Positions 6,917 to 54,977 of a stretch of 64,000 nt of DNA are shown here, piece by piece. The DNA is from Ancylobacter vacuolatus (lineage in GTDB: Bacteria; Pseudomonadota; Alphaproteobacteria; Rhizobiales; Xanthobacteraceae). The stretch spans positions 558,001 to 622,000 of the forward strand of contig NZ_JAUSUH010000001.1 of NCBI RefSeq assembly GCF_030813595.1, written 5' to 3'. The notes under the pieces are model-generated. The model was given only the letters and a program-made list of their open reading frames with translations. It did no database searches and had not been told where the DNA came from. How positions within the stretch are numbered: position 1 is the first letter of the stretch; every line of letters starts with the position of its first letter. A program made the position numbers and the translations under genes.

Positions 6917-8626
<1,710 letters not shown>

Positions 8627-17887: not shown

Positions 17888-18097
17888 ATGGCTACGGGTA
17901 CTGTGAAGTGGTTTAACGGCCAGAAGGGCTTTGGTTTCATTCAGCCGGACAACGGCGGGCCGGACGTGTTCGTTCACATCTCCGCGGTCGAGCGCGCGGG
18001 CCTGATGGGCCTGAACGAAGGCCAGAAGGTGTCTTACGAGCTCGAGACCGATCGCCGCAGCGGCAAGAGCTCGGCCGGCAGCCTCAAGGCTGCGTGA
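17888..18097 (+). CDS. cspA: Cold-shock protein (CspA family)
   Basis: Single cold-shock domain of 69 residues beginning [18 protein letters not shown]. The RNA-binding motifs RNP1 (KGFGFI) and RNP2 (VFVHIS) are both intact. It acts as an RNA chaperone that melts secondary structure. AAAGGA lies about 10 bases upstream of the ATG. It has a long 5' leader and is closed by a strong terminator, so it is a monocistronic unit. Other Csp paralogues are expected in the genome; cold induction is not proven by sequence. Confidence 0.95.
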
Positions 18098-19847: not shown

Positions 19848-20162
19848 TCAGCTGAAGATCGCCTGATAGGCGAAACGATTCCCGTCGCCGGCGATGGGGA
19901 CGAGGAATATGTCCAGCTCGCCCAGCGCCTCATGGTGCAGGCGATGGGTGAGCTGGACCAGGCGATAGGGCCCCTCGCCCTCAAAGAGCAGCTGGAAGCC
20001 ATCGCGCCCACCGGGCAGGTCGCCGGCGGGAGGACGGCGTACGGGCAGCCTCGCGGCCTCCCGCAGGACGATTCGCAAGGGCTCGGGCAGGCCGACCTCG
20101 ACGGCGAAGCTCTCGCCGACGCGCGGCTCGAACTGCTCAAGCGACCATGCAGGCCTGTCCAT
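19848..20162 (-). CDS. DUF6916-like small protein
   Basis: 104 residues. The layout MDRPAWSLEQFEPRVGESF ... FQLLFEGEGPYRLVQLTHRL ... ALGELDIFLVPIAGDG-FAYQAIFS matches the small beta-rich DUF6916-type proteins as I remember them. These are often encoded beside tail-collar (microcystin-dependent-protein-like) genes. No catalytic residues are evident and there is no signal peptide. The ATG at 20162 has AAGGGA seven bases upstream; the longer frame is not needed. It is transcribed away from the PqqD/kinase/sulfotransferase unit, 106 bp apart. The family label is moderate and its role unknown; the context suggests it belongs with the 20-27 kb cluster. Confidence 0.6.
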   Translation of the reverse strand: MDRPAWSLEQFEPRVGESFAVEVGLPEPLRIVLREAARLPVRRPPAGDLPGGRDGFQLLFEGEGPYRLVQLTHRLHHEALGELDIFLVPIAGDGNRFAYQAIFS

Positions 20163-20268: not shown

Positions 20269-20550
20269 ATGCCCCTTTCAACCAGTTCAGAGGTCGTTCG
20301 GCGCCACCATCCGCTTGAAGCCGCCATTGGCGACACGCAGGTTCTGCTGGATGTCGAACAGGGCCTTTATTTCGGGCTGAACGCGGTCGCCAGCAGCATC
20401 TGGCAGCGGCTGGAGCGACCCATCCGGGTCGACGACCTCTGCCGCTCGCTCAAGGCCGACTATGCGGGCGACGAGGCGCGCATCCAGGCGGAGGTGCTCG
20501 CCTTTCTGGCGCAGCTTGAGACGCAAAACCTCATCGATATTCGCGCGTGA
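20269..20550 (+). CDS. PqqD-like RiPP recognition protein (lasso B1 / HPr-rel type)
   Basis: 93-residue PqqD-superfamily protein. Beta segments VVRRHHPLEAAIGDTQVLLD and GLYFGLNAVASSIWQRLE are followed by a helical part ending AFLAQLETQNLIDI. Members bind the leader of ribosomally made peptides and present it to modifying enzymes; in lasso clusters the equivalent is B1. Its stop overlaps the start of the HprK-like gene (GTGA), so the two are translationally coupled. The next gene, a sulfotransferase, overlaps likewise. A candidate leader with W-x-x-P-x-L is encoded at 24209-24370. The family is clear; its partner is inferred. Confidence 0.82.
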   Translation: MPLSTSSEVVRRHHPLEAAIGDTQVLLDVEQGLYFGLNAVASSIWQRLERPIRVDDLCRSLKADYAGDEARIQAEVLAFLAQLETQNLIDIRA

Positions 20551-21467
20551 GTGCGGCGATGCCGATGACCGACGGCCTCCTCTGCGGCTGGCGCATCCGC
20601 TCCGAGATTGCGCTGCCGGAGCTTTTGTCATGGCAGGGCGACGACCGGCCGCCCGACCTCACCGTCTGCCTCGGCGAGGTGGACGAGCACCTGCCCGGGG
20701 GCCGGGAGATTAGCCCGTTCATTCACATCGACACCAACGGCGCCGGCCTGCTGCAGGTGCCGATGGTGGGGCGGTTCCTTGTGCGCCCGTCCGGCGACAT
20801 CACCGTCGCGCCGCACCCCGAGGCGAGCGAGACCGAGATTCGGCTGTTTCTGCTCGGCTCGGTGCTCGGCCTGGTCTGCCATCAGCGCGCACTGCTGCCG
20901 CTGCATGCCTCCAGCGTCGTCATCGAGGGCGGCGCCGTCGCCTTCTGCGGCCATTCGGGCATGGGAAAGTCCACTTTGGCGCTGCGCTTCGCCCGGCGCG
21001 GCCATGCCGTCGTCTCCGATGATGTCTGTGTCCTCGACAGTGGCCCGCCCGCCCGGGTGCGGCCCTCCTTTCCGCGGCTGAAGCTCTGGCGCGATGCGAT
21101 CGAGGATGCGGCGCTCTCTTCCGAAGGCCTGGAGCGCAACCGGCGCGGGCAGGAGAAATACCATTTTCTGGAGCCCGAGGCGGGCGTTCGCGATCCCCTC
21201 CCCCTGCGTGCGATCTTCCTTTTGCGCCGGCCCGAACGCGGCGAAGCGGAAGGCATTGAGCGGCTGTCGGCACCGCTCGACATCCTTGCCGCACTGGAGG
21301 CCGAAACGTTCCGGCCGCAGATCGGGCGGGCACTGGGGACCGAGAAGGCGCTGTTCCAGGCACGCACGCTCATCGCTAATTCGGTGCCCGTCTATCAGCT
21401 TCGGCGCCCGCCGGATGCGCCGCCCGAGCGCTGGCTCGACGCCATCGCGGCGATCGTGCGGGGATGA
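20547..21467 (+). CDS. HPr-kinase-related kinase (HprK-like, tailoring type)
   Basis: 306 residues. It has the HprK-type core LLPLHASSVVIEGGAVAF and Walker A GHSGMGKST (about residues 135-143), then VSDDVCVLD as the acidic Mg-binding segment. The N-terminal ~110 residues are not the true HprK N-domain. This is the HprK-related kinase group found beside PqqD proteins and asparagine-synthetase-like ligases. A characterised relative in the paeninodin lasso system phosphorylates the C-terminal serine of the precursor. The start GTG (20547) overlaps the PqqD stop; an ATG at 20559 is possible. It overlaps the sulfotransferase by 4 bp. The substrate is inferred. Confidence 0.8.
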   Translation: MSAAMPMTDGLLCGWRIRSEIALPELLSWQGDDRPPDLTVCLGEVDEHLPGGREISPFIHIDTNGAGLLQVPMVGRFLVRPSGDITVAPHPEASETEIRLFLLGSVLGLVCHQRALLPLHASSVVIEGGAVAFCGHSGMGKSTLALRFARRGHAVVSDDVCVLDSGPPARVRPSFPRLKLWRDAIEDAALSSEGLERNRRGQEKYHFLEPEAGVRDPLPLRAIFLLRRPERGEAEGIERLSAPLDILAALEAETFRPQIGRALGTEKALFQARTLIANSVPVYQLRRPPDAPPERWLDAIAAIVRG

Positions 21468-22300
21468 GCGGCCTCGCGCTCATCGCATCCTATCCCAAGT
21501 CCGGCAATACCTGGCTGCGGGCCTTCCTCGCGAGCCATCTGCGCGGCGGCCAGCCGATCGATCTCAATGGCGACCTCTCGCGCATCAAGAATTTGACCGG
21601 CCGTAGCCTGCAGGACAAGCATGCGGGCCTGGAGCACTCGGACCTGACGCCGGATGAGGTGGCTCTGCTTCGGCCCCTCACCAGCCGCCGGATCGCCCAG
21701 CTGCAGCCGGGCCTCTATAAGACCCACGACTCCAACCTCGTTCCGCTCGGCGCGCGCGAGCCGGCGATTCCCGCCGATGCCATAGACCGCCTCGTCTATA
21801 TCGTCCGCGACCCGCGCGATGTGGCGATCTCGATGGCGCATCATTTCGGCTGGACGCCTGAGGACAGCGTCAACCAGATGGCCGATACGACCTTCCGCAT
21901 GGGCCGCTCATCGACCCGGCTCAACATGAATGTCGAGCAGTGGGTCTCTTCCTGGAGCGCCCATGTCGAGAGCTGGCTCGACGCGGCCGATCTACACCTG
22001 CTGCCGCTGCGCTATGAGGACCTGCTGGCCGACCCGCTGGAGCGTTTCACCGAGTTGTGCCGGTTCCTTGATCTGGATGACACGCGGCACGCCATCAGCC
22101 GCAGCCTGGAGGCCAGCAGCTTCACCGCGCTCGCCGCCCAGGAGGCGCGCACGGGTTTCCGCGAGCGGTACCCGGCCTCAACCGCGCCCTTCTTCCGCAA
22201 GGGGGGCGCAGGCGGGTGGCGGGGGGAATTGCCGCCGGGGCTGGCCGAGCGCGTGGCCAGCGCGCATAACCGGGTCATGGCACGCCTCGCCTATCGCTGA
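21464..22300 (+). CDS. PAPS-dependent sulfotransferase
   Basis: 278 residues. The 5'-phosphosulfate loop YPKSGNTWLRAFL (about residues 10-22) and the 3'-phosphate site YIVRDPRDVAISMAHHF (about 109-125) are both intact. The C-terminal FFRKGGAGGWRGEL resembles the RKGxxGDWK motif of cytosolic sulfotransferases. It transfers sulfate from PAPS to a hydroxyl or amine. Its start overlaps the kinase stop (ATGA), making a PqqD-kinase-sulfotransferase unit. In this setting a peptide hydroxyl is a plausible acceptor, but small molecules cannot be excluded. It ends 28 bp before the converging ligase gene. Confidence 0.85.
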   Translation: MSGLALIASYPKSGNTWLRAFLASHLRGGQPIDLNGDLSRIKNLTGRSLQDKHAGLEHSDLTPDEVALLRPLTSRRIAQLQPGLYKTHDSNLVPLGAREPAIPADAIDRLVYIVRDPRDVAISMAHHFGWTPEDSVNQMADTTFRMGRSSTRLNMNVEQWVSSWSAHVESWLDAADLHLLPLRYEDLLADPLERFTELCRFLDLDDTRHAISRSLEASSFTALAAQEARTGFRERYPASTAPFFRKGGAGGWRGELPPGLAERVASAHNRVMARLAYR

Positions 22301-22328: not shown

Positions 22329-24197
22329 CTACCCGTTTCCGCCCTCGACGCGGCGGATGAAGCGGCCGGCGGTGAGCGCACGGCTGAAGGCGCAGAGATA
22401 GTCACGGTTCGCCCGTTCACTCGTGTCGTCGATGCCCGGCCAGGCGTCGAGCAGTGCATCCATGCGGTTGAGATCGAGGCACTCGCTGGCGAAGGGGCTG
22501 TTGCGCAGCCGCGCCACTTCCGCCCGCAGGCCCGGGAGCGCTTCCTGGAAGCCGACCCGCCAGTCAGCCGCCTGCAGTCCCTTGCGCCGCTCATTCAGCA
22601 CGACATCCGGCACAAGACCCCGCATCGCCCGGCGAATCAGCGAGCGCGGCACGCCACCCAGCGCGAACTGCTCCTCGGGAATGGCGAGGCACAGCTCGAC
22701 GACGCGCCGGTCCATGGTGGGGTCGCGCAGTTCGAGCCCGAACAGACGGCGCGCCACCATGACCGGGAAGCCGCGATGGCTGGTTCGATCGAGTGCGGCC
22801 AGCCGCAACGCCCGGCTGTCGCCGCGGCCGATATTCACGAGGTTGCCGGCCACGGCATGGGCACGATCGGCTATGCCGGAGCGCTCGAGGAAATGCGGGT
22901 GAACGGCGGAGAAATCGAACAGGCCGGTTTCCCTCTTGCCTGCCGCCGCCCGCAGCCGCCGACGCAGCGACGCCGGCAGGACGCTGTCGGCGACCTGCCC
23001 GCCAATGCCGAGCCAGCTGCGCCCGCCCCGGCGCAGGTCCCGCATGGTCGCGACGGCGCCCAGCCAGTCGCCCTTGTTCAGCCGCGACGCCAGCAATTCG
23101 CTGCCGGAGTAGCTGATGGTCAGATTTCCCATCGGGGCCTGCAGCAGCACGTCCAGACGACGGCGCCGCGCCTCGCGGCCGATGGCGTGGACCCAGACCA
23201 TGTTGGAGGCATTCAACACCGGCCATTCGGCCGCCATGTCGTGCATTTCCAGCGTATCGAGCAGCGGTTCGGCATCATTGTCGATTCGTACATGCTCGAC
23301 ATTCGGGTAGAGCGCCGCGACCGCGGCGGCATGCGGCCATTCATCGGTGAATCGGTTGCGGCGGGACGGCTGGGGATGGCGCGGCGCTGCGGTGAAGGCG
23401 GTGAGGCTGCGTCCCTGCGCGGCGAGTTCCCGCGCCGCCAGCGCGGTGACGCTCGCACTGTCCAGCCCGCCCGAAAGTTGTGTGCCGATACGCTCGCCGG
23501 GACGGATGCGGGCGCGCACCGCTTCCGCAAGCGTGTCGCGCAGCGCTTCCTCGTAATCCGAGTCACGCGGCAGGTGCAGCATTGGCAGATGCTCGGGCCG
23601 CCACCAACGATGCAGGGTGAAATCGCCCCTTGCCCAGCGCACGAAATGGCCAGGCGGCACCCGGTTTATGCCGCGAAAGAAGGTGCGCATCGGCTCGCGC
23701 GGCAGCATGCACAGCCAGGCCGCCATCTGGTCGGGATCGATGTCGCGCGACACGTCGGGGCAGGCGAAAAGCCCGCGTTGCTCGGTGGCGAACAGCAGGT
23801 GGCCGTGACCGGACCAGAAGAACAGGGGGCGATGGGCGCTGGGATCGACGCCGAGATAGAACGCGCGCTGGTCGCTGTCCCAGACGGCGCAGGCATAGTC
23901 GCCGATCAGGTGGTGGAAACAGTCGCTTCCCCATCTGGCATAAGCGGAGCCGGCAAGGGCACTATCGGTTCGCTCTCGGGTAGCGTCGAGACCGAGCGCC
24001 CCGCACAGCTCCCGGCGGTTATCCAGCCGCCCGTCAAAGGCCACGGCACAGCGGTTCGCGACCTCTATTCCCGCCGCCGTGGCGCTACCAAGCGCGATGG
24101 GCGGATCACTGTGCAAGAAGGCGCGGCGATCCCCACGGGTCAGGGCGGACAGACAGGCGCGAATCGGTTCTGGGGAATGCAGCCCCCCGCAGAACAC
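22329..24197 (-). CDS. Asparagine-synthetase-like ligase (lasso cyclase type)
   Basis: 622 residues with two domains: an N-terminal Ntn/glutaminase-like half (about 1-200, with DGRLDN and GVDPSAHRPLFFW) and a C-terminal ATP-pyrophosphatase half with SGGLDSASV at 242-250. The Cys is at position 3 (MFCGG), not 2, so glutamine hydrolysis is doubtful. Such proteins activate a carboxylate as an acyl-adenylate; in lasso peptide clusters they form the isopeptide macrolactam. The GTG start has GGGAG eight bases upstream and lies 11 bp after the stop of the small precursor-like gene, in one operon. It converges with the kinase/sulfotransferase genes. The family is firm; the cyclase role is inferred from context. 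Confidence 0.82.
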   Translation of the reverse strand: MFCGGLHSPEPIRACLSALTRGDRRAFLHSDPPIALGSATAAGIEVANRCAVAFDGRLDNRRELCGALGLDATRERTDSALAGSAYARWGSDCFHHLIGDYACAVWDSDQRAFYLGVDPSAHRPLFFWSGHGHLLFATEQRGLFACPDVSRDIDPDQMAAWLCMLPREPMRTFFRGINRVPPGHFVRWARGDFTLHRWWRPEHLPMLHLPRDSDYEEALRDTLAEAVRARIRPGERIGTQLSGGLDSASVTALAARELAAQGRSLTAFTAAPRHPQPSRRNRFTDEWPHAAAVAALYPNVEHVRIDNDAEPLLDTLEMHDMAAEWPVLNASNMVWVHAIGREARRRRLDVLLQAPMGNLTISYSGSELLASRLNKGDWLGAVATMRDLRRGGRSWLGIGGQVADSVLPASLRRRLRAAAGKRETGLFDFSAVHPHFLERSGIADRAHAVAGNLVNIGRGDSRALRLAALDRTSHRGFPVMVARRLFGLELRDPTMDRRVVELCLAIPEEQFALGGVPRSLIRRAMRGLVPDVVLNERRKGLQAADWRVGFQEALPGLRAEVARLRNSPFASECLDLNRMDALLDAWPGIDDTSERANRDYLCAFSRALTAGRFIRRVEGGNG

Positions 24198-24208: not shown

Positions 24209-24370
24209 CTAGGATGAGAAGCCGTCGGTGTCGCCCTCGTTAGTGAACTGCGTCTCGGCGCTGCCGGCTGGCCTCACCGTAAGCTCAGGTGTCTCCCAAG
24301 CCATCGGTGCCTGCCGAATGCTGTCACCAGCCACGCCAAGGGACGGCTGGGGCAACCCGTCTTCATTCAT
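24209..24370 (-). CDS. Candidate RiPP (lasso/paeninodin-like) precursor peptide, 53 aa
   Basis: A 53-codon gene with a near-ideal ribosome site (GGGAGG, 5 bases before ATG), 11 bp upstream of the ligase start. Residues 24-41 read AWETPELTVRPAGSAETQ. Counting from Trp25, Pro is at +3, Leu at +5 and Thr at +15, which is the spacing of the lasso leader rule YxxPxLxxxGxxxxxT with Trp for Tyr and the Gly displaced by two. Thr would be the penultimate leader residue. The predicted core is then FTNEGDTDGFSS, with Asp at core position 8 for a possible F1-D8 ring and a Ser-Ser end suited to phosphorylation. A 12-residue core is short for a lasso, so another macrolactam or linear product is possible. 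The coding call is strong; product class is inference. Confidence 0.68.
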   Translation of the reverse strand: MNEDGLPQPSLGVAGDSIRQAPMAWETPELTVRPAGSAETQFTNEGDTDGFSS

Positions 24371-24516
24371 TCACGCCTCCCAGAATTCCGACAATGCAAC
24401 CATCGGTCGTTAGATATCGAACATGCCACGCGCCCCAACGTCAACCAGCCGGCGCCGAATTCCGAGCTCATTGCCGCCCGCCACGCAAGATTCTTGAAGG
24501 AATATACTACCGGTAA

Positions 24517-24546
24517 TTGACACGAAGTAATGATGCTCGGTATGGT
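24517..24546 (+). promoter_or_regulatory. Candidate sigma-70 promoter of the tail-collar operon
   Basis: TTGACA (24517-24522), an 18-nt spacer and TATGGT (24541-24546), 57 bp before the first collar gene. It lies in an AT-richer 232-bp divergent region between the precursor gene and the collar genes. TACCGGTA, a perfect 8-bp palindrome, sits just upstream at 24507-24514 and could be an operator core. No other gene is seen in this gap. Confidence 0.5.
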
Positions 24547-24602
24547 TGCACTCATAGCATGTCGCCCTCGCAGCTGGCTCGGGGGATCAGGGAGGCATCG
24601 GA

Positions 24603-25151
24603 ATGAGTGATAGCTTCGTCGGTGAAATTCGTGCCTTTGCCCACGCCAAGATTCCGTCCGGATGGCTGGCCGCGAACGGCGCCCTTCTTCAGATCAACCA
24701 GAACCAGATGCTGTACGCCCTGATCGGCAACAGGTTCGGCGGCGACGGCGTGAAGGATTTCAAGCTGCCCGATTTGAGAGGAAGGGTGCCGATCGGATAT
24801 GGTTTCAATTCGACGCTGGGCTTGAATTACGCCGTGGGAGCGACCGGCGGCGCGGAGACGGTGACCTTGACCGCCGCGACCTTGCCGAAACATTCGCACC
24901 CGTTTCGGGCCTGCACGATGATCGGCACCCAGATCAACAAGCCGGGCAGCCATCTGGCAGGTGTCGCTAAGGACAATGACAGCGGGAAGATCCGCTATCT
25001 CTACGCGCCCTGCCCCGCCATTCCCAAGGTCTCACTGCACGCTGACACGATTACGGCCACCGGTGACGGGCATCCGCACGAGAATATGCAGCCCTTCGCG
25101 GCGGTGACGTACTGCATCTGCTCCAGGGGCATCTGGCCGCAACGCGACTAA
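24603..25151 (+). CDS. Tail-collar domain protein 1 (microcystin-dependent-protein-like)
   Basis: 182 residues. The phage tail-collar pattern is complete: VGEIRAFAHAKIPSGWLAANG at the N-terminus, then LYALIGNRFGGDG, FKLPDLRGRVPIGYG, GGAETVTLTAATLPKHSHPF and the C-terminal HENMQPFAAVTYCI. There is no signal peptide. Bacterial members of this family occur as tandem non-phage genes; their function is not established. It is the first of three paralogues in an operon with a GNAT gene. GGGAGG lies about 9 bases before the start. No other phage structural genes are nearby, so it is not a prophage remnant. Confidence 0.88.
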   Translation: MSDSFVGEIRAFAHAKIPSGWLAANGALLQINQNQMLYALIGNRFGGDGVKDFKLPDLRGRVPIGYGFNSTLGLNYAVGATGGAETVTLTAATLPKHSHPFRACTMIGTQINKPGSHLAGVAKDNDSGKIRYLYAPCPAIPKVSLHADTITATGDGHPHENMQPFAAVTYCICSRGIWPQRD

Positions 25152-25161
25152 GGAGGCGGAA

Positions 25162-25716
25162 ATGGAATGCTATGTCGGCGAGATCAGGTTATTTGCCGGA
25201 AAGAAGCCCCCCAGGGGGTGGGCGCTGTGCGACGGGAAATTGCTCCCGGTCATCGGCAATGAGGCTCTCTTCGTCCTCCTGGGCGCCACCTGGGGGGGCG
25301 ATGGCCACACGAGTTTCGCCCTGCCCGACCTGCGCGGTCGACTGATGGTCGGCGCGGGCCAAGGTACGGGCCTCACCTCGCGCCTCCTGGGGGCCGTGGG
25401 CGGCGTGAAGGAAGTTACGCTGACCCATTCGCAGATCGCCGCCCACAAACATCTCGTGATGGCGACGGAGGCCGATGCCACCACGGAGAAACCCGATACG
25501 ACGATGGTCTTTGCCACGGCCTCTTCCCCGGATGCGGCGTCAGACCGGGGCGGGCTGCCCTACATCCACGACAAAAGCGGCACCGAGACACGCACTCTGG
25601 AAAGCGACACCATCGGCCACCAGCACCAATACCTAGCGGGTCCCCACGATAACATGATGCCTGCGCTCTCGATCAATTACATCATCGCACTCAGTGGCAT
25701 CTACCCCCAAGAGTAA
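25162..25716 (+). CDS. Tail-collar domain protein 2 (microcystin-dependent-protein-like)
   Basis: 184 residues. It starts with YVGEIRLFAGKKPPRGWALC then DGKLLPV, followed by LFVLLGATWGGDG, FALPDLRGRLMVGAGQG, GGVKEVTLTHSQIAAHKH and the end HDNMMPALSINYIIALSGIYPQ. It has the same architecture as the preceding gene with clear divergence, so the triad is an old duplication rather than a recent one. The start is 10 bp after the previous stop, with AAGGAGG overlapping the gap. The role is unknown. Confidence 0.88.
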   Translation: MECYVGEIRLFAGKKPPRGWALCDGKLLPVIGNEALFVLLGATWGGDGHTSFALPDLRGRLMVGAGQGTGLTSRLLGAVGGVKEVTLTHSQIAAHKHLVMATEADATTEKPDTTMVFATASSPDAASDRGGLPYIHDKSGTETRTLESDTIGHQHQYLAGPHDNMMPALSINYIIALSGIYPQE

Positions 25717-25730
25717 TAACGGAGACAGTC

Positions 25731-26267
25731 ATGGATGCTTATATGGGCGAAATACGTGCCTTTGGCTTCGACTATCCGCCGGTCGACTGGGCTTTCTGCG
25801 ACGGTCATGCCGTGGATGTCGCTCAGTTCCAGGCGCTGTTCTCTATTATTGATTTCACCTATGGGGGGAACGGCAGGACGACGTTCAACCTGCCGAACCT
25901 GAAAGGCCACGCCGCGATGGGGGCGAGCTATGACTATGCGTTGGCCAAAGCCACGGGGACGCCGACGGTCGCCCTCACCCACCCGCAGCTTCCCGCGCAC
26001 CACCACGAAGCGTTGACCTATATTGGCAATCTGGCCGACGCCAAGCTGAGCGCGAGCCCGAAAGACAACTGCCTCGGCCGCTATGAGGTTGCAGGCGTCA
26101 ACAAGTTAGCCAACCATTACCTGCCGGGCAGCACGGATACCGACACCACCCTGGCGGAGGCCAGCATCGGCATCGCTGGCGAGGGAGCCGCGCATCAGAA
26201 CATGCAGCCTTATCTCGCCCTCAACTACTGCATCTGCCTGGTCGGCGAGTATCCGGCCCCCGAGTGA
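25731..26267 (+). CDS. Tail-collar domain protein 3 (microcystin-dependent-protein-like)
   Basis: 178 residues, third copy: MGEIRAFGFDYPPVDWAFC, then DGHAVDVAQFQALFSIIDF, YGGNGRTTFNLPNLKGHAAMG, VALTHPQLPAHHHE and HQNMQPYLALNYCICLVGEYP. In the collar loop LPDLRGR has become LPNLKGH, so this copy has drifted at the most conserved point. It is in the same operon, 14 bp after copy 2 and 4 bp before the acetyltransferase. Confidence 0.87.
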   Translation: MDAYMGEIRAFGFDYPPVDWAFCDGHAVDVAQFQALFSIIDFTYGGNGRTTFNLPNLKGHAAMGASYDYALAKATGTPTVALTHPQLPAHHHEALTYIGNLADAKLSASPKDNCLGRYEVAGVNKLANHYLPGSTDTDTTLAEASIGIAGEGAAHQNMQPYLALNYCICLVGEYPAPE

Positions 26268-26271
26268 CGCC

Positions 26272-26820
26272 ATGGCCACCGGTCCAGACTATCTGCCAGG
26301 CAGCCTTCGCTGCCTCGGCCTCTCACTACGCTTTGAAACCCCCAAGGACGCCCCGTTCCTCGCGGCGCTGTTCGCCAGCGTGCGCAGGCCGGAATTCGAG
26401 GGCAATGGCTGGCCGGACGACGTCCGGCACGCCTTTCTGGCTGACCAGTTCCGCCTCCAGGTGGCGCACTATGCGCGCTACTATGCCGATGCGGCGTTCC
26501 TCATCGTCGAGCGGCAGGGCGTCCCGATCGGTCGGCTCTATCTCCATCGCGGCCCGCGCGAGCATCGCATCGTCGATATCAGCCTGCTGCCAGAGACCCG
26601 CAACCAGGGCATTGGCGGCGCGCTGCTCGATATGGCCTGCACTGAGGCCAGCCGCCTCGGGCGCCTTGCCTCCATCCATGTGGAGAAGAACAATCCCGCC
26701 CAGCGGCTCTATCGGCGCAAAGGTTTCGTGCCGGCGGGCGAGAGCGGGCCGTACTGGCTGATGATCCGCGCGCCAGACCAGGAGACGGCGGCCGAAGCGC
26801 ATGCCGAAGCCGGCGCCTGA
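26272..26820 (+). CDS. GNAT-family N-acetyltransferase linked to the collar genes
   Basis: 182 residues with a GNAT fold: IVERQGVPIGRLYLHRGPRE, IVDISLLPETRNQGIGGALL (the Q/RxxGxG/A acetyl-CoA loop) and VEKNNPAQRLYRRKGFVP. The first ~50 residues (CLGLSLRFETPKDAPFLAAL) are the usual entry strand and helix. It starts 4 bp after the third collar gene, so it is very likely translated with that operon. The acceptor is unknown; acetylation of a collar protein or cluster product is speculative. Confidence 0.85.
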   Translation: MATGPDYLPGSLRCLGLSLRFETPKDAPFLAALFASVRRPEFEGNGWPDDVRHAFLADQFRLQVAHYARYYADAAFLIVERQGVPIGRLYLHRGPREHRIVDISLLPETRNQGIGGALLDMACTEASRLGRLASIHVEKNNPAQRLYRRKGFVPAGESGPYWLMIRAPDQETAAEAHAEAGA

Positions 26821-29359: not shown

Positions 29360-32300
29360 TCAGGTGCCAAGCCCGCCAATGACCAGCCGATGCGCCGTGC
29401 CGTCCAGCGGCACGCGAAACGCGCCATCGACGCGCTCCACCGCGACGCCGTCCAGCCGCGCGCCGACGTTCGCCTGACCTTCCTGCGCCGGCCCGACCAC
29501 GATCTCGTAAGCCGTTCCGGCAATCGTCACCCGGGCCTCGAATCCCGGCCAGTCCTCGGGAATGCAGGGCGATACGGTGAGATGCGCGCCGTCTTTCCGG
29601 ATGCCGAGAATGCCCTCGATGCCGGCGCGGTACATCCAGGCGGCCGAGCCGGTGTACCAGCTCCAGCCGCCGCGCCCGGCATGGGGCGCAACCGAATAGA
29701 CATCCGCGGCCAGCACATAGGGCTCGACCTTGTAGGTCGCGACCTGGCCCGGCGAGCCGCCATGGTTGATGGGGTTGAGCAGTGCGAACAGCTCGTGCGC
29801 CTTTGTGCCGTCCCCGAGCCTGGCGAAGGCGAGGATCGCCCACATGGCGGCATGGCTGTACTGGCCGCCATTCTCGCGCAGGCCCGGCGGGTAGCCCTTG
29901 ATATAGCCGGGGTCGCGCGGCGTGTTCTTGAAGGGCGGCGTGAACAGCAGCGCGATGCCCTCCTCGCGGCGGACCAGATGCTGCTCCAGCGAGGCCATGG
30001 CCTGCGCCGCGCGGCTCGCATCGGCCGCACCCGACAGCACCGCCCAGGACTGGGCGATGGAATCGATGCGGCACTCGTCATTGTCGCTGGAGCCGAGCCA
30101 GGAGCCGTCATCATAGGTAGCGCGGCGGTACCAGGCGCCGTCCCAGGCGTGTCGCTCGATTGCCTCGCGCACGGATGCGGCATGGGCACGCCAGCGCCCG
30201 GTACGCAGGGGATCGCGCGCCTCGGCGAGCGGGGCGAACATCTCGACCGTGCGGATGAACAGCCAGCCGAGCCACACGCTCTCGCCCTTGCCGCCCTCCC
30301 CGACCCGGTTCATGCCGTCGTTCCAGTCGCCGGTGCCCATCAGCGGCAAGCCGTGATCGCCGGTGAGTTCCACGCATTGGTCGAGCCCACGCGCGCAGTG
30401 CTCGAACAGCGAGGCGCTCTCCTGCGAGGGCATCGGCTGGAAGAACGCATCGTGCTCGCCGGGCCGCAGCGGCGGCCCCTCGAGGAACGCCACCGGCTCG
30501 TCCAGCACGCCCGCGTCGCCGGCGGCGGCGATATAGGTGGCGGCGGCATAGGCCAGCCAGACCCGGTCGTCGGAAATGCGGGTGCGCACGCCCTGGCCGG
30601 AATGCGGCAGCCACCAATGCTGCACGTCGCCCTCGACGAACTGCCGGGCGGCGGCGCGCAGCAGATGGCGGCGGGTCTCCTCCGGCTGCGCGAAACTCAG
30701 CGCCATCCCGTCCTGCAGCTGGTCGCGGAAGCCATAGGCGCCGCTTGCCTGGTAGAAGGCCGAACGTGCCCGGATGCGGCAGGCAATGGTCTGGTACAGC
30801 AGCCAGCCATTCAGCATGATGTCGGTGGCGCGGTCCGGCGTCTTCACCTCAACCGCGCCGAGCAGCCGCTCCCAATGGTCGGTGACGGTCTTCAGCACCG
30901 CATCGAGATTGGTCGCGCGGTAGCGGGCGATCAGCACGCGCGCCTCGTCTCCCGTGCGGCACTGGCCGAGCGTCGCCACGATCTCCACGCTTTGTCCGGG
31001 CTGCAGCACGACGAGTCTCTGCAACGCCGCGCAGGGGTCCAGCCCGGCGCCGGTCTTGCCGGAGAGTGGCACCTTGCCCATCAGCGCCGCCGGCGCCGCG
31101 ACGTCGCCCTTGCGGCCGAGGAACTCGGTGCGGTCGGCGGTCCAGGCGGTCTGCATCCCGCCGAGATCGGCGAAGGCGACCCGCCCATTGCCGATCGCGC
31201 TCCATGAATTGCGGGCAAACATCGCTCCGGTGGCGAGATCCATCTCGGTGGCGATGAACGGCGCCGAGGCCCCGCGCACCGTGCCGAGCACCCACTCGAC
31301 ATAGGCCGTCACCGTGAGGCGGCGCACCCGGTCAGACGTGTTGGTCAGAGTCAGGCGCGAGATCTTGATCGGGTCGGCCAGCGGCACATACTGCAGCAGG
31401 TCGAGCGCGACACCGTTGGCTTCGTGAGAAAAGCTGGAATAGCCGAAGCCGTGGCGGGCGATATAGCTGCCACCGTCGCGAATGGGCAGCGCCGTGGGGC
31501 TCCAGGCATCGCCGGTCGCCTCGTCCCGGACATAGATGGCCTCGCCGATCGGGTCGGCGACCGGGTCATTCGACCACTGGGTCAGCTGGTTTTCGCGGCT
31601 GTTCTGCGCCCATGTGTAGCCGCTGCCGTCCGCCGAAACCTGGAAGCCAAAGCCGCTGCCGGCGATCACATTGATCCACGGCGCCGGGGTGGTCTCCTCG
31701 CCGTTCAGCTGGACGACATATTCGCGGCCGTTCTTGTCGAAGCCGCCGAGCCCGTTGAAGAACTCCAGCGACAGCTCCGACGGCGCCACCACCGGCGCCA
31801 TCGTCCGGCGGCGCCGTGCTGCCGCCGGACGCGGCAGGAAGGCCGGAATATAGGTTAGCTGGTTGGCGATCGTGCCCCGACGCGCCGAGAGCACGACACG
31901 GGCCACCGATTGCAACAGCCCGCGCCCTTCCAGGCTCATCATGTCGGTGCGCAGCACATGCACCGCGCCCTGCCCCTGCTCGTCGCCGAAGCGTGGGCGC
32001 GACTGGCTTGAGCGCACGGCCGTCTCGATGGCGATCTGCAGATCCTGCACATAGGACGAGGCGTGCTCGTTGAGGATGACCAGATCGACCGCCAGTCGCT
32101 TCATGCCCCAATATTCATGGGCGCGCAGAAGCTGGCGCACCTGCGCCATGTCCTCGAGATCGTCGATGCGCAGCAGCACGATCGGCAGATCGCCGGAGAT
32201 CGAATATTGCCAGAGCGAGGATTGCGGCCCGGCGCCGCGCTCGATGACGTCGGAGGGCACGCGGAAGCGGGCGTCGGCATAGATGATCGGCGCGGCAAGG

Positions 32301-35300
32301 CGCTGGAAATCGGCGGCCTCCTCGGCCTTCACGTCGAGATGGCGCAGCTGCACCTGCGCCTGCGTCCACGCCAGTGTCTTCGCCCGCTCGAAGGCATTGC
32401 GGTCATGATGCTTGTCGACGAGATTGAGCAATTCCTCGCGCGAGGACGCGACCAGCGTCCAGAAGGCCACGCGCACGGTTCGGCCGGCGGGGACCTTCAC
32501 CCGGTGGCGCAGCGCAAAGACTGGGTCGAGCACCGTGCCAACCGTGTTGGAAAGGGCCGCCCCTTCCCGGATGACCGCGGCCTCGCCCGGCTCGCGGTTG
32601 CGGCCGAGAAAAAGGGCGCGATCGCTCTCATATTGCGGCGGATCCAGCATCTCGCCCTCGATGACGGCGAAATGCGCGGCCCAGATTTCCGCCTCGTACG
32701 GCGAGCGCCGCCGGCGGGTGGCGATGAGCGCGCCGAATTCCGGGCGGTGCTCGGTCTCGACAAACATCTTGGCAAAGGCCGGATGCGCGTTGTCGGTCGC
32801 CGGCGTCGCGAGCACCAGCTCGGCATAGGAGGTGAGCTCGATCTCACGCGCCCGCCGCCCGCTATTGGTCAGCGAGACGCGCCGCACCTCGCCATCATCC
32901 TCGCCGGAGACCAGCAGATCCATGGTGGTGATGAGCGAAGGGCTGCGGTGGATGAATTCGGCGCGGTCCTCGGAGAACACCACGTCGTCGTGCTCGGCGG
33001 CAACGCCGAACGGCTGGGCGCCGGCCGACCATAGTTCGCCGCTCTGGCTGTCGCGCAGGAAGATGTGCGAGCCTTGCACGTCGCGCGTCGCATCCTCGCG
33101 CCAGCGGGTCACGGCGATGTCGCGCCAGCGGCTGAAACCAGTGCCGGCGGTCGTCACCATCACCACATAGCGGCCGTTCGAGAGCAGATGCGTCACCGGC
33201 GCCCCACCGGAAGGTGGCTTGAGGCAACGCACATTCGGCGCCTCATTGGCCTCGCTCCTGGCGGAGGCCTTCACCTCTTCGGCGCGGGGATAGGCGACGA
33301 TGACGTTGCGCGGCATGCGCTCCTGCAACAGCAATTCGCTGGCCTGGATGATCGGCTCGCGATGGAAGCGCGCCCGCATCTGCCCGCCGCCCAGCACATT
33401 GGCGATGGCGACGATTGTCATGCCCTGATGGTGGGCCATGAAATTGCGCACGATGGCGACGCTGGCATCGGCGGGCCGGCGCGCAGGGGTGAAGTCCAGC
33501 GCCTCATAGAAGCCGTAGCGTCCGCCGGCCCCCATAGCGGCGAGCCGGGCAAAATTCTCCCGCGCCCCCGAGGGGTCGACCATGGTCGCCAGCCCCGTCG
33601 CATAAGGCGCGATCACCAGATTGTCCGACAGGCCCCGCTTCAGGCCGAGGCCCGGCACACCGAAATTCGAGTACTGGTAGGTGAATTCGAGATCGCGCGC
33701 ATTATAGGCGGATTCCGAGATGCCCCAGGGCACGCCGAGCCCGCGCGCATAGCTCTGCTGGCGCGCCACCACCAGCCGGTTGGTCTGTTCCAGCAGGCTG
33801 CCGGTCGGCGCCCGCATCACCAGCGAGGGCATCAGATACTCGAACATCGAGCCGGACCACGACACCAGCGCGGAACCGCTGCCGAGCGGCGTCGCCGTGC
33901 GCCCGAGCCGGAACCAGTGCCGTGTGGGCGCGTCGCCCTTGGCGATGGCGAACAGGCTGGCGAGCCGGGCCTCCGAGGCCAGCAGATCGTAGCAGCTCGG
34001 GTCGAGGCAATTGTCGGGTACGCTGTAGCCGATGGAGAGCAGCTTGCGTTCGGGATCGAGCAGGAAGGCGAAATCCATCGCCAGCGCCATGTCGCGCGCG
34101 GTCTGGGCGATGGTGCGCAGGCGGTTGCGCAGCGTGCGGGGAGCATCGGCGAGGTAGAGCCGGTCACGCTCGTGCTCGGCCACCGCAACGCGCAGGCGCT
34201 CGGTCCAGAAGACCAGATCCGGCGCGCCGCTCTCGTCCGCGGTCGGCGCCAGGTCGGCGGCCAGACGCGACGCTTTCTCGGTGAGGCGTATCAATGTCGG
34301 CGTCGAGGCCTCCAGCCCCTGTCCGCCGTGCAGCAGCGCGGTGATCTCGACGAACAGGCCGTCCAACTGGCCGGCGCGCTCGTCGGCCGCCATCACCTGC
34401 GTCGTGCCGAGCGCCTCGCGGGCCAGCGCGATGGCATCCGCCATGCCGGCTTCCGCCTTATGCGTGAGCGGTACGTCGATCCACTCCTCGCAGGCCACGG
34501 CGACGACGAGAAGATGGCCGGCAAGATTGCCGCTGTCGACCGAGGAGACATAGGCCGGCTCCAGCACCCGCAGGTCGCGCGTGCCGTACCAGTTGAAGAA
34601 GTGCCCCTTGAAGCGCGCCAGGCGCTGCATGGTCGAGAGCGTCGCCTCCAGTCGCTCGACCGTCTCCATCGTCGCCGCCCAGCCGAAATCGCGCGCCGCC
34701 ACCGAGGACATGAGGTAGAGCCCCATATTGGTCGGCGACGTGCGGTGCGCGACCACCGGCTTGGGGTCCTCCTGGAAATTGTCCGGCGGCAGCATGTTCT
34801 CGGCTGGGGTGACGAACGTCTCGAAGAAGCGCCAGGTGCGGCGGGCGATCAGCCGAAGAGCGTGGGCATCATTGGGCGAGACCGCCAGCGTCTTGGCGAT
34901 CGGCGGCGAACGGCTCGCCCAGAAGGCCAGCGCCGGCGCGGCCAGCCACAGCAGGGCGAAGGGCAGGATCACCGGCCATGATTCCGGCGCCCAGGCGAAG
35001 GCGCCGAGCGTCATCGCCAGCCCCAGCACGGTACCGCCCTGCATCTCGCGGTAGAAGCCGATGAGATCGAGCCGCGGCTGAGCGCCGGCCACCGCCGCCG
35101 TGGTCCATTCCAGCAGGTGCCTATGACTGACGAACAGCCGGAAGAGCGTGCGGATCACCGCATCGGCGAGGCGCCAGCTTTGATCGGGGAGAAAGGCGAA
35201 GGTGAACACGGTCTGCAGCAGCGCGATGCGCAGATCGTCCGCCAGCGCCGTCACATGGCTGAGCAGCCGGATACCGACCCCGCGCGGCACGATGGAGAAC

Positions 35301-37876
35301 AGCGCCGGCAGAAAGGCGGGGATCGCGATCGCCGCGATCAGCGCCAGCACCGCATGGACATTCCACGGTGCCGGCGCCAGCCAGCTGACGCCCAGCGCGG
35401 CGAAGGTGAAGGGTAGCACCAGCGAGCGGCGCAGATTGTCCAGCATCTTCCAGCGGCCGAGCGTCGGCACCGCATGCGCGCCGGACCGCAGGCCGAACAC
35501 CCAGGGCAGCAACTGCCAGTCACCCCGGGTCCACCGGTGCTTGCGCTTGGCGATCACGTCATAGCGGGAGGGAAAATCCTCGACCACCTCGACATCGGAC
35601 GCCAGACCCGCGCGGGCATAAATGCCCTCGAACAGATCATGGCTCAGCAGTACGTTTTCCTTGATCCGCCCGGCGAGCGAGGCCTCGAACGCATCGACAT
35701 CATAGATGCCCTTGCCGGTATAGGAGCCCTCGCCGAACATGTCCTGATAGACATCCGACACGGCGGCCGCATAGGGGTCCATTCCGCCCGGGCCGGAATA
35801 GACCCGCTGGTAGAGCGAGCCATCGCGCCCGATCGGCAGCGAGGCCGTCACGCGCGGCTGCAGGATCGCGTAGCCGCCCACGACGCGCTGCTCGGCGACG
35901 CTGAATTGCGGCCGGTTGAGCGGGTGCGCCATCTTGCCGACCAGCCGCACCGCCGCATCGCGCGGAAGGCGGGTATCGGCGTCAAGCGTGATGACATACC
36001 GCACGTCCGCCGGCACCTGCGGCGGCTGGCCGTGAAACGCGATGAAGCTTGTATTGGTGGCGCCGCGCAGCAGCCGGTTCAGCTCATGCAGCTTGCCGCG
36101 CTTGCGCTCCCAGCCCATCCATTTGCCTTCGCCTTCGTTCCAGACGCGATGGCGGTGCAGCAGCAGGAAGCGAGGCCCTGATGGCGCCGGCCCGTAGCGG
36201 CGATTCAGCTGCGCGATCGCCGCCGTGGCGGTGGCAAGCAGGGCCTCGTCACCCTCCACCTTCTCCTGGTCGGCATCCATGCCGTCCGACAGCAGCGCGA
36301 AGGCGAGATCGCCGCTGGAACCAGTGAGATAATGAACTTCCAGCCGCTCGATCTGCTCCAGCAGATCGGCTTCGCTGGTCAGGAGCGTCGGCACGACCAC
36401 CAGCGTGCGCAATTCGGTGGGAATTCCGGCCGCGAGCTCCAGCCCCGGCAAGGGCGAGGCACCGAACGAATACGCCACGCCCCGGTTGACCAGCGCGCTC
36501 GCCGCATCCGACGCCGGCAGGAAGGCGAGCGGCGCCAGCAGCAACAGCCAGCCGGCGAAGCCGCCGGGAATGGCGAGCCACGCATAGGCGAGCACAAGCA
36601 GCGTCAACGTAGTGATCAGCACCGCCACGGCATAGCCATGGACTCCGAGCGGCGTGTTGAGCCGCGAAATCCACAGCCGCGCTGGCGGGCGGAAGCCGAT
36701 GCTCGTCTCCAGCGCGAGCCGACCTCCGGCGATCAGATGATAACCCGGATCACGCGCGCTCTCCTCCCCCTGCATCGCCGTGGCATCCGCACGGGTGCAG
36801 CAGGCGCTGGCGCTCAAGGCGCGGCGCGCGACCTCCAATTCGCTGACGGTCGAGCCGCGCGCCAGCTGCTCAATGGCGCTGCGGTAGAGATTGCGGGTCG
36901 CGAAATCCATCGCATCGAAGCCGCTGGCGCCGCGCAGCGTCTGGTCGACCAGGCTGACGCTCTCGAACCATTCGGCCCAGTCGATATCGGAGATCAGGCG
37001 CATGCTGGTGATGACATTGCGCACCGTGACATTCGACGCCCCCTGCCTCTGCTGGGCGTGCTGAACCACCTCGTCGATCGAGGTCTCTTGCAATTTGAGC
37101 CGCTCATCGAGCCATCCGAGCGCTGGCGTGGTGCGCGGATCCTGGTCGCGCAGCCGCTTGGCCAGTTGCGCCGCGAACAGTTCCGACAACGGCTCGCACG
37201 AGCGCGCCACGATATCGCTGTCGAGCGAAAAACCGGCGAAGCCGGTCTCCAGCACCCGGTTGGCCAGAGCGTCGGCTTGTGCCCGCGCCTCGCGTCCGAC
37301 CATGATCTGGTCGGTCAACCGGCGCAGATTCTCGATCAGCACGATCCGGAGCGTGATCGCCACCGCCCAGAGCTCGCCGATCGAGAGCGGCTCGACGGTT
37401 TGGTAGGAGGCAACAAAGCGCCTCAGAGTGGTCGGGTCGACATGGCTGTCCGTGTGGGCGACGAACGCCCAGGCGAGGCCGAAGACTCGAGGGTAGCCGG
37501 CGAATGGACCGGCGGCGAGCTTGGGCAACTGGCGGTAATAGCCCGGCGGCAGGTCGTCGCGGATCTCGCGGATCTGCTCCTCGACGAGGTGATAATTGTC
37601 CAGCAGCCACTCGGCCGCCGGCACGACCCCGTTCCCCTCCTCCAGTTCGGCGGCACTGGCGCGATAGGCCGCCAGCAGCACCCTGGCATTGTCGTTCAGG
37701 CGGCTTTGCAGGGGGACGACGACCGGCGGATTGGGCGACACTTTCTGTGCCGCCGCGAGGCTTTCAGCATGCTGCTCCAGCCGCTCGACGCCGAACAGCT
37801 CCTCCCGGACAGGGGCCGTGTCGCTCCAGGGCGCGGACGAACGACGGTCGAAAACCGCGCGGAGTTGGGCCAGCAT
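29360..37876 (-). CDS. ndvB: Cyclic beta-1,2-glucan synthase (NdvB/Cgs)
   Basis: A 2838-residue inner-membrane enzyme that makes cyclic beta-1,2-glucans exported to the periplasm for osmoadaptation and host interaction. Order of parts: an N-terminal cytoplasmic region (PVREELFGVERLEQHAESLA); membrane helices about 410-460; the GT84 glycosyltransferase domain with YVITLDADTRLPRD (about residues 640-655); more membrane helices about 800-1000; a glucoamylase-like middle region; and two beta-sandwich/GH94 phosphorylase modules at the C-terminus (GTGDWNDGMNRVG and YKVEPYVLAADVYS). Length is normal for the family (~2800). It has no adjacent ndvA exporter. The plus strand across it carries long spurious frames. 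Confidence 0.96.
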   Translation of the reverse strand: MLAQLRAVFDRRSSAPWSDTAPVREELFGVERLEQHAESLAAAQKVSPNPPVVVPLQSRLNDNARVLLAAYRASAAELEEGNGVVPAAEWLLDNYHLVEEQIREIRDDLPPGYYRQLPKLAAGPFAGYPRVFGLAWAFVAHTDSHVDPTTLRRFVASYQTVEPLSIGELWAVAITLRIVLIENLRRLTDQIMVGREARAQADALANRVLETGFAGFSLDSDIVARSCEPLSELFAAQLAKRLRDQDPRTTPALGWLDERLKLQETSIDEVVQHAQQRQGASNVTVRNVITSMRLISDIDWAEWFESVSLVDQTLRGASGFDAMDFATRNLYRSAIEQLARGSTVSELEVARRALSASACCTRADATAMQGEESARDPGYHLIAGGRLALETSIGFRPPARLWISRLNTPLGVHGYAVAVLITTLTLLVLAYAWLAIPGGFAGWLLLLAPLAFLPASDAASALVNRGVAYSFGASPLPGLELAAGIPTELRTLVVVPTLLTSEADLLEQIERLEVHYLTGSSGDLAFALLSDGMDADQEKVEGDEALLATATAAIAQLNRRYGPAPSGPRFLLLHRHRVWNEGEGKWMGWERKRGKLHELNRLLRGATNTSFIAFHGQPPQVPADVRYVITLDADTRLPRDAAVRLVGKMAHPLNRPQFSVAEQRVVGGYAILQPRVTASLPIGRDGSLYQRVYSGPGGMDPYAAAVSDVYQDMFGEGSYTGKGIYDVDAFEASLAGRIKENVLLSHDLFEGIYARAGLASDVEVVEDFPSRYDVIAKRKHRWTRGDWQLLPWVFGLRSGAHAVPTLGRWKMLDNLRRSLVLPFTFAALGVSWLAPAPWNVHAVLALIAAIAIPAFLPALFSIVPRGVGIRLLSHVTALADDLRIALLQTVFTFAFLPDQSWRLADAVIRTLFRLFVSHRHLLEWTTAAVAGAQPRLDLIGFYREMQGGTVLGLAMTLGAFAWAPESWPVILPFALLWLAAPALAFWASRSPPIAKTLAVSPNDAHALRLIARRTWRFFETFVTPAENMLPPDNFQEDPKPVVAHRTSPTNMGLYLMSSVAARDFGWAATMETVERLEATLSTMQRLARFKGHFFNWYGTRDLRVLEPAYVSSVDSGNLAGHLLVVAVACEEWIDVPLTHKAEAGMADAIALAREALGTTQVMAADERAGQLDGLFVEITALLHGGQGLEASTPTLIRLTEKASRLAADLAPTADESGAPDLVFWTERLRVAVAEHERDRLYLADAPRTLRNRLRTIAQTARDMALAMDFAFLLDPERKLLSIGYSVPDNCLDPSCYDLLASEARLASLFAIAKGDAPTRHWFRLGRTATPLGSGSALVSWSGSMFEYLMPSLVMRAPTGSLLEQTNRLVVARQQSYARGLGVPWGISESAYNARDLEFTYQYSNFGVPGLGLKRGLSDNLVIAPYATGLATMVDPSGARENFARLAAMGAGGRYGFYEALDFTPARRPADASVAIVRNFMAHHQGMTIVAIANVLGGGQMRARFHREPIIQASELLLQERMPRNVIVAYPRAEEVKASARSEANEAPNVRCLKPPSGGAPVTHLLSNGRYVVMVTTAGTGFSRWRDIAVTRWREDATRDVQGSHIFLRDSQSGELWSAGAQPFGVAAEHDDVVFSEDRAEFIHRSPSLITTMDLLVSGEDDGEVRRVSLTNSGRRAREIELTSYAELVLATPATDNAHPAFAKMFVETEHRPEFGALIATRRRRSPYEAEIWAAHFAVIEGEMLDPPQYESDRALFLGRNREPGEAAVIREGAALSNTVGTVLDPVFALRHRVKVPAGRTVRVAFWTLVASSREELLNLVDKHHDRNAFERAKTLAWTQAQVQLRHLDVKAEEAADFQRLAAPIIYADARFRVPSDVIERGAGPQSSLWQYSISGDLPIVLLRIDDLEDMAQVRQLLRAHEYWGMKRLAVDLVILNEHASSYVQDLQIAIETAVRSSQSRPRFGDEQGQGAVHVLRTDMMSLEGRGLLQSVARVVLSARRGTIANQLTYIPAFLPRPAAARRRRTMAPVVAPSELSLEFFNGLGGFDKNGREYVVQLNGEETTPAPWINVIAGSGFGFQVSADGSGYTWAQNSRENQLTQWSNDPVADPIGEAIYVRDEATGDAWSPTALPIRDGGSYIARHGFGYSSFSHEANGVALDLLQYVPLADPIKISRLTLTNTSDRVRRLTVTAYVEWVLGTVRGASAPFIATEMDLATGAMFARNSWSAIGNGRVAFADLGGMQTAWTADRTEFLGRKGDVAAPAALMGKVPLSGKTGAGLDPCAALQRLVVLQPGQSVEIVATLGQCRTGDEARVLIARYRATNLDAVLKTVTDHWERLLGAVEVKTPDRATDIMLNGWLLYQTIACRIRARSAFYQASGAYGFRDQLQDGMALSFAQPEETRRHLLRAAARQFVEGDVQHWWLPHSGQGVRTRISDDRVWLAYAAATYIAAAGDAGVLDEPVAFLEGPPLRPGEHDAFFQPMPSQESASLFEHCARGLDQCVELTGDHGLPLMGTGDWNDGMNRVGEGGKGESVWLGWLFIRTVEMFAPLAEARDPLRTGRWRAHAASVREAIERHAWDGAWYRRATYDDGSWLGSSDNDECRIDSIAQSWAVLSGAADASRAAQAMASLEQHLVRREEGIALLFTPPFKNTPRDPGYIKGYPPGLRENGGQYSHAAMWAILAFARLGDGTKAHELFALLNPINHGGSPGQVATYKVEPYVLAADVYSVAPHAGRGGWSWYTGSAAWMYRAGIEGILGIRKDGAHLTVSPCIPEDWPGFEARVTIAGTAYEIVVGPAQEGQANVGARLDGVAVERVDGAFRVPLDGTAHRLVIGGLGT

Positions 37877-54909: not shown

Positions 54910-54977
54910 CCCGCTCCCGGGTTTGCCGGCCGGACGTGTTATAGGCAACGTCACTTTTTGGAATCGTTGGGCGATTT

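Follow-up and report, generated by a model that had tools for sequence, protein, structure and literature searches.

A conserved 53-codon gene beside tail-collar genes in Ancylobacter vacuolatus is a likely precursor gene of a lasso-type peptide

We analyzed a stretch of 64,000 nucleotides from Ancylobacter vacuolatus (here called the window) and found that a 53-codon open reading frame (ORF) at positions 24209 to 24370 of the minus strand is, judging from its conservation, a real gene. We consider it likely that this gene, A, encodes a RiPP precursor of the lasso (macrolactam) type, within the paeninodin-like group whose clusters include a kinase. What we observed is that the gene is conserved, that certain of its residues keep a fixed spacing, that it is linked to the other genes of the set, and that the enzymes and the leader peptidase B2 give family matches; from these observations we infer the cleavage site, ring closure, threading, phosphorylation or sulfation, fiber assembly, partnership and function discussed below.

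The precursor gene and its maturation enzymes

Gene A reads from 24370 down to 24209 and specifies the 53 amino acids MNEDGLPQPSLGVAGDSIRQAPMAWETPELTVRPAGSAETQFTNEGDTDGFSS. The initial annotation of this DNA, which gave no strand, had proposed a lasso-type precursor here, and much of its description was borne out on the sequence. GGGAGG is followed after five bases by the ATG of A, 11 bp separate the stop of A from the GTG of the ligase gene C (24197), and three genes, of PqqD-like, HprK-like and sulfotransferase type, are found less than 4 kb away (20269 to 22300, plus strand). The residues of the proposed leader motif were all found (W25, P28, L30 and T40, the last at W+15). Of the rule YxxPxLxxxGxxxxxT, the Trp/Pro/Leu/Thr spacing is kept and the Gly at +9 is not, Pro standing in its place. 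The leader motif, the lasso-type ligase and the linked B1, kinase and sulfotransferase genes support the reading of A as a lasso-type precursor.

Nine of the 30 Ancylobacter genomes searched carry the tail-collar genes and the cluster. We inspected the neighborhoods of all nine (the window, L055 to L057 and L160 to L164), and each has an A-like ORF at the same place. Conservation of the frame in relatives that keep the ligase, on which the initial annotation had staked its reading, was seen in all eight genus genomes in which a ligase ortholog was found; G204, which has no C in the cluster, also keeps the frame. Counted from the motif Trp (W+0), Pro at +3, Ala at +13, Gln, Glu or Arg at +14, Asp or Glu at +22 and a terminal Ser are each present in 9/9 orthologs, the Ser falling at +27 in eight and at +28 in the window. 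The aromatic-x-x-P-x-[L-like] leader appears as W..P with Leu, Ile or Met at +5 in all nine, Trp replacing Tyr. Mean identity among the nine is 51.9% from W to W+14 and 24.8% in the cores.

The gene that follows A, C (22329 to 24197, minus strand), encodes an asparagine-synthetase-like lasso cyclase (PF00733, 106 bits; cut-off, 21) with an SGGLDS motif. Its best NCBIfam model is the lasso cyclase model NF033535, at 230 bits, below the cut-off of 525. On the plus strand lie the genes for B1, a PqqD-like RRE protein (20269 to 20550; PF05402, 64.9 bits; cut-off, 23.4), for K, an HprK-like kinase (20547 to 21467; PF07475, 30.3 bits, just below the cut-off of 33.3), and for a sulfotransferase (21464 to 22300; PF00685, 100 bits; cut-off, 22). 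The best NCBIfam model for B1 is NF033536 (lasso_PqqD_Bac; 53.8 bits, below the cut-off of 80), and K scored 35.6 bits with HprK_rel_B (cut-off, 200). The 4-bp overlaps between B1 and K and between K and the sulfotransferase gene suggest that the three form one operon. A search of solved structures by sequence returned only distant matches for the kinase and the cyclase.

B1, K, the sulfotransferase and a GNAT acetyltransferase are present in 9/9 genus clusters and C in 8/9, so that a kinase gene accompanies a Ser-ending ortholog of A in every case. The exception for C, G204 (L162, 10930 to 11846), is a natural deletion: C is missing from the 20 kb inspected and the sulfotransferase is truncated, matching to about residue 166, and A, the kinase, PqqD, the collars and a remote B2 are all kept.

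The window genome holds two further lasso-type cyclase loci, L053 (G000:C2, 10110 to 12113) and L054 (G000:C17, 1171 to 4985), with precursor-like ORFs of their own, one of which has the core GGGGGSDDFVAGLS; the B2 match of L054 falls in two frames, possibly a frameshift. Elsewhere in the window we noted a 2838-amino-acid protein with GH94 and glycoamylase domains (29360 to 37876, minus strand), which we take to be a probable cyclic beta-glucan synthase, a 3012-amino-acid open frame (45916 to 54954, minus strand), and a 69-amino-acid ORF (17888 to 18097, plus strand) that by eye resembles a cold-shock protein.

Tail-collar genes beside the precursor gene

The gene set given by the initial annotation stood as far as the linked B1, kinase and sulfotransferase genes are concerned; it had overlooked the absence of B2 from the cluster and three tail-collar genes. 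These lie on the plus strand at 24603 to 25151 (PF07484, 81.1 bits; cut-off, 24), 25162 to 25716 (PF07484, 80.8 bits) and 25731 to 26267, the third being recognized by its alignment with other collars. They are followed by the GNAT gene (26272 to 26820, plus strand; PF13508 and PF00583 over cut-off). A is divergent from collar 1 in 9/9 genus loci, and in the window the 232-bp intergenic region (24371 to 24602) likely holds both promoters. Since three paralogs are kept in order, the collar proteins probably form a heterotrimeric fiber. An H-x-H and a later H-x-N are retained in 18/18 aligned collars; such His residues bind metal in T4 tail fibers. Collar 2 weakly matches 1ocy and 1pdi (E, 0.004 to 0.005), a sequence search returned no solved structure for collar 1, and the structure model of collar 1 is poor (pLDDT, 64). 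Compared with phage short tail fibers of the T4 gp12 type, the system shares the collar domain, the weak 1ocy and 1pdi matches of collar 2 and the two His motifs, and differs in that three co-conserved paralogs lie beside RiPP genes in cellular genomes.

On the other side of the cluster is a gene for a DUF6916 protein (19848 to 20162, minus strand, with the start set by alignment; PF21880, 80.6 bits; cut-off, 27). It is less constant, occurring as a single ORF in 5/9 genus clusters. It is in two pieces in G186 (L056, 5889 to 6099), and we saw no copy next to the cluster in G199, G205 and G214 (L160, L163 and L164), which points to a gene that is dispensable or decaying. An attempt to assign it a function by fold was abandoned: the model (pLDDT, 82) gave 0 matches at E 0.001, the best E values being 0.13 in the PDB and 0.017 in a viral library.

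The collars of the genus change unusually fast. Between the window and G186, identity is 43 to 50% for the collars (24603 to 26267), against 86 to 89% for the neighboring kinase and sulfotransferase; the kinase, sulfotransferase, B1 and B2 together span 86 to 91%, and GNAT and C stand at 74% and 72%. Collar divergence does not follow that of the kinase (r, 0.09, compared with 0.91 for sulfotransferase and kinase). Fast change of peptide and fiber, with the tailoring enzymes remaining stable, would be consistent with a role in recognition without proving it.

Pairing of a precursor with collars recurs in other bacterial genera, as judged from gene content. Three loci with 27 to 28% cyclase identity (L067, L068 and L071) contain C, B1, B2, kinase, sulfotransferase, three collars, GNAT and DUF6916, with B2 inside the cluster. 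In L071, a 225-amino-acid protein encoded between B2 and C (7124 to 7801, plus strand) resembles by eye a 2-oxoglutarate/iron oxygenase. We also sampled loci by a search that does not use the cyclase: PF21880 was found in 10 of 289 genomes of the class, the window's included, and the 13 matches outside the window fell in 12 stretches. All 12 have collars. C, B1, kinase and sulfotransferase are all present in five; three, all of genus g83 (L226, L228 and L229), have B1 and a precursor and no C; and four have collars with no lasso genes nearby. One of those four is G475:C4; if it belongs to the same replicon as L085, a Tistrella mobilis plasmid locus with C, kinase, sulfotransferase and PqqD, lasso genes lie some 60 kb off. 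The g83 loci hold the precursor, PqqD, GNAT, DUF6916 and three collars together, and cyclase, kinase and sulfotransferase are absent from the 20 kb inspected; genes located elsewhere may supply the remaining maturation steps. Among open-licence PMC papers, we found none that mentions both "lasso peptide" and "tail collar" and none that mentions DUF6916. The link is surprising and we found no earlier report of it, a search scope that does not prove novelty.

What the neighborhood means for the peptide can be read in two ways. It is quite possible that A encodes an ordinary secreted lasso-type peptide and that the collar neighborhood is inherited and not functional. Collars occur at only 2/73 cyclase loci outside the genus in one cyclase-search set, so that they accompany a single subset of the lasso-type clusters; the four collar-bearing DUF6916 loci without nearby lasso genes point the same way, as does the weak correlation between A-core and collar divergence (0.29 over 36 pairs). 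Inheritance without function sits less easily with the recurrence of the same block at 28% cyclase identity (L067, L068 and L071), with genus g83, where A, PqqD, GNAT and collars remain grouped with no cyclase nearby, and with the distance of the nearest collar, which is within 500 bp of A in 9/9 genus loci and 10/15 others. More tentatively, we propose a hybrid system in which a lasso or lariat peptide, phosphorylated or sulfated on its C-terminal Ser, would be a working part of a heterotrimeric collar fiber of phage-tail origin encoded at the same locus, acting as its cap, ligand, tether or regulator, both partners diversifying fast under conserved maturation enzymes.

The leader peptidase and the leader-core boundary

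We did not find B2 in the window cluster. A remote B2 is encoded in the window genome (G000, contig C3, at about 197 kb) and matches NF033537 (lasso_biosyn_B2) at 94.3 bits (cut-off, 33), so the argument that B2 has been lost and the system is not of the lasso type was rejected. Strong PF13471 matches (E, 3.5e-19 or better) occur in exactly the nine collar genomes of the 30; matches in four of the 21 genomes without collars also pass the cut-off, less strongly (E, 2.6e-11 to 5.4e-9). In 8/9 the B2 gene is flanked by those of a FadR-type regulator and an ABC-2 permease; in G200 it is inside the cluster beside DUF6916. FadR itself is found in 29/30 genomes, and in 21 of these 29, G200 included, no B2 or permease lies within about 1.5 kb. 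In a FadR tree the eight remote-B2 genomes form one clade and G200 falls elsewhere, which gives about two independent events; counting the nine genomes as nine independent co-occurrences of collars and B2 was therefore rejected. In G103, the sole cyclase found at a threshold of E 1e-20 and the sole B2 found are the cluster C and the remote B2. The ABC-2 permease was considered as a cluster-specific exporter and rejected, being present in 25/30 genus genomes at E 1e-120; only its position beside B2 is special. No dedicated exporter for the peptide was identified.

The initial annotation had taken Thr at +15 as the penultimate leader residue, leaving the core FTNEGDTDGFSS. This boundary was not supported by the orthologs: Thr+15 occurs in 2/9 and Ala+13 in 9/9, and Ala+13 with Asp or Glu at +22, that is, at core place 8, fits all nine. 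The predicted core is accordingly TQFTNEGDTDGFSS (24212 to 24253, minus strand), with a putative Thr1-Asp8 ring, a six-residue tail and a C-terminal Ser. A penultimate Thr, usual though not absolute in lasso peptides, is absent in this register, Ala taking its place throughout, and the acid expected at core place 7 to 9 sits at place 8 in 9/9. Acid counts at core places 1 to 12 of the nine orthologs are 1, 3, 2, 0, 1, 1, 0, 9, 3, 3, 0 and 0; an all-acid column arose in 0 of 100,000 within-sequence shuffles, which ignore the relatedness of the orthologs.

Further precursor-like ORFs, from paralogs and other genera, have Thr, Ala or Ser at +13/+14 in 19/19 hand-picked cases: Thr at +13 or +14 in 14, Ala+13 in four and Ser+13 in one. 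With that residue taken as -2, Asp or Glu falls at place 7 to 9 in 16/19 and three break the ring rule, counts of acid (as of Ser) that are biased upward by search patterns that required an acid, or a Ser in one of the two final positions. One pattern behind the 19 was W/Y..P with a hydrophobic residue at +5 and Ser last or second-last; another required the acid. L060, whose register is ambiguous, and other chance-looking ORFs were left out, and no precursor was recognized among the ORFs at L227, L222 to L224, L230, L080, L070, L062, L063 and L065. The L071 precursor gives no 7-to-9 ring fit from its Thr+14. L173, a second cluster in G214, has Thr+13 and Asp+22 at the positions that are Ala+13 and Asp/Glu+22 in the window clade. 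L221, L058 and L064 likewise combine Ala+13 with Asp+22 and have B2 within the cluster, so Ala at -2 does not mean loss of B2.

That the initial boundary is nevertheless right for this strain, with a leader ending in Thr-Gln, the core FTNEGDTDGFSS and a Phe1-Asp8 ring, strikes us as unlikely. It places Thr at W+15, in agreement with the published Y(-17)...T(-2) spacing (PMC10368454), and an acid at place 8, and Thr-Gln also precedes Phe in L067 and L068; yet the Thr of those two lies at +14 and +13, respectively, and of the two orthologs with Thr+15 only the window has an acid at place 7 to 9, G200 having none. The Ala+13 register with its acid at +22 accommodates all nine.

On the predicted core, most tails lack a bulky plug residue, as in SGVSS, GTGTS and DGQSS among those of five or six residues, so that the product may be either a lariat that is not threaded or a lasso kept in place by its modified Ser. 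The short, plug-free tails, together with the missing penultimate Thr and the absence of B2 from the window cluster, would also suit a non-lasso RiPP, in which the ligase forms another amide or the peptide is only phosphorylated or sulfated and carries no ring. We give this little credence in view of the intact remote lasso B2, the invariant acid at a fixed place, and paralogs with Thr at +13/+14 and an acid at place 7 to 9.

The fixed places of A can be written as W..P.{9}A.{8}[DE].{4,5}S-end. They had been noted on six orthologs before three more were seen, and the pattern was formulated once the full set of nine was known. It matches one of 481 window ORFs of 30 to 170 amino acids, A itself, and 13 of 19,837 ORFs in 126 loci, some of them duplicated; the 13 reduce to eight different precursors, which adjoin the eight clusters other than that of the window, and there was no other match. 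A matched none of the NCBIfam and Pfam precursor models, including the paeninodin model NF033524 at E 10; the precursors of L231 and L054 score 19.4 and 15.7 bits with that model, below its cut-off of 27. Although A is short and without any family match, the identical motif and position in 9/9 clusters and the confinement of the pattern to them make it extremely improbable that A is a random reading frame in the gap upstream of the ligase gene.

Relation to known systems

According to PMC8498205, the paeninodin kinase places its phosphate on the C-terminal Ser and does not work on the peptide once it is threaded, and some Firmicutes clusters begin with a sulfotransferase gene. The window cluster resembles those of paeninodin-type phosphorylated lasso peptides of Firmicutes and Proteobacteria in its split B1/B2, cyclase, HprK-like kinase and Ser-ending precursor. 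It differs in its remote B2, the Ala at the penultimate leader place, the short acidic core and the adjoining three collar genes and GNAT, and in that NF033524 does not match A. A changed -2 residue has a precedent in a kinase-bearing cluster: BsfA is a validated lasso precursor with Ile-2, and precursors with Ile, Val or Ala at -2 are mentioned as predicted (PMC10368454). Unlike BsfA, in which BsfK phosphorylates Ser3, the precursors described here have no fixed Ser at place 3 and a Ser fixed at the end.

In the mechanism that we propose for A, B1 would bind the W-x-x-P-x-[LIM] leader. K, and perhaps also the sulfotransferase, would act on the precursor while it is still linear. The most likely target would be the C-terminal Ser, which by analogy with paeninodin we infer to be the phosphorylation site of K. 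The remotely encoded B2 would then cut after Ala-Glu, and C would join the newly exposed N-terminus (Thr1) to Asp8 through an amide. The product would be an acidic lariat of 14 residues, six of them in the tail. That the mature peptide would act together with the collar fiber is the least certain step, and we put it forward with reserve.

These findings bear on how such clusters are recognized: a lasso cluster can look incomplete when B2 is encoded elsewhere, and for a leader with Ala at -2 a Thr-based rule would misplace the boundary. They bear also on what the peptides are for. The enzymes of phosphorylated lasso peptides have been described, and their biology is little described. If the precursors are tied to a fiber module across genera, the fiber would offer a direct, testable handle on the purpose of the peptide.
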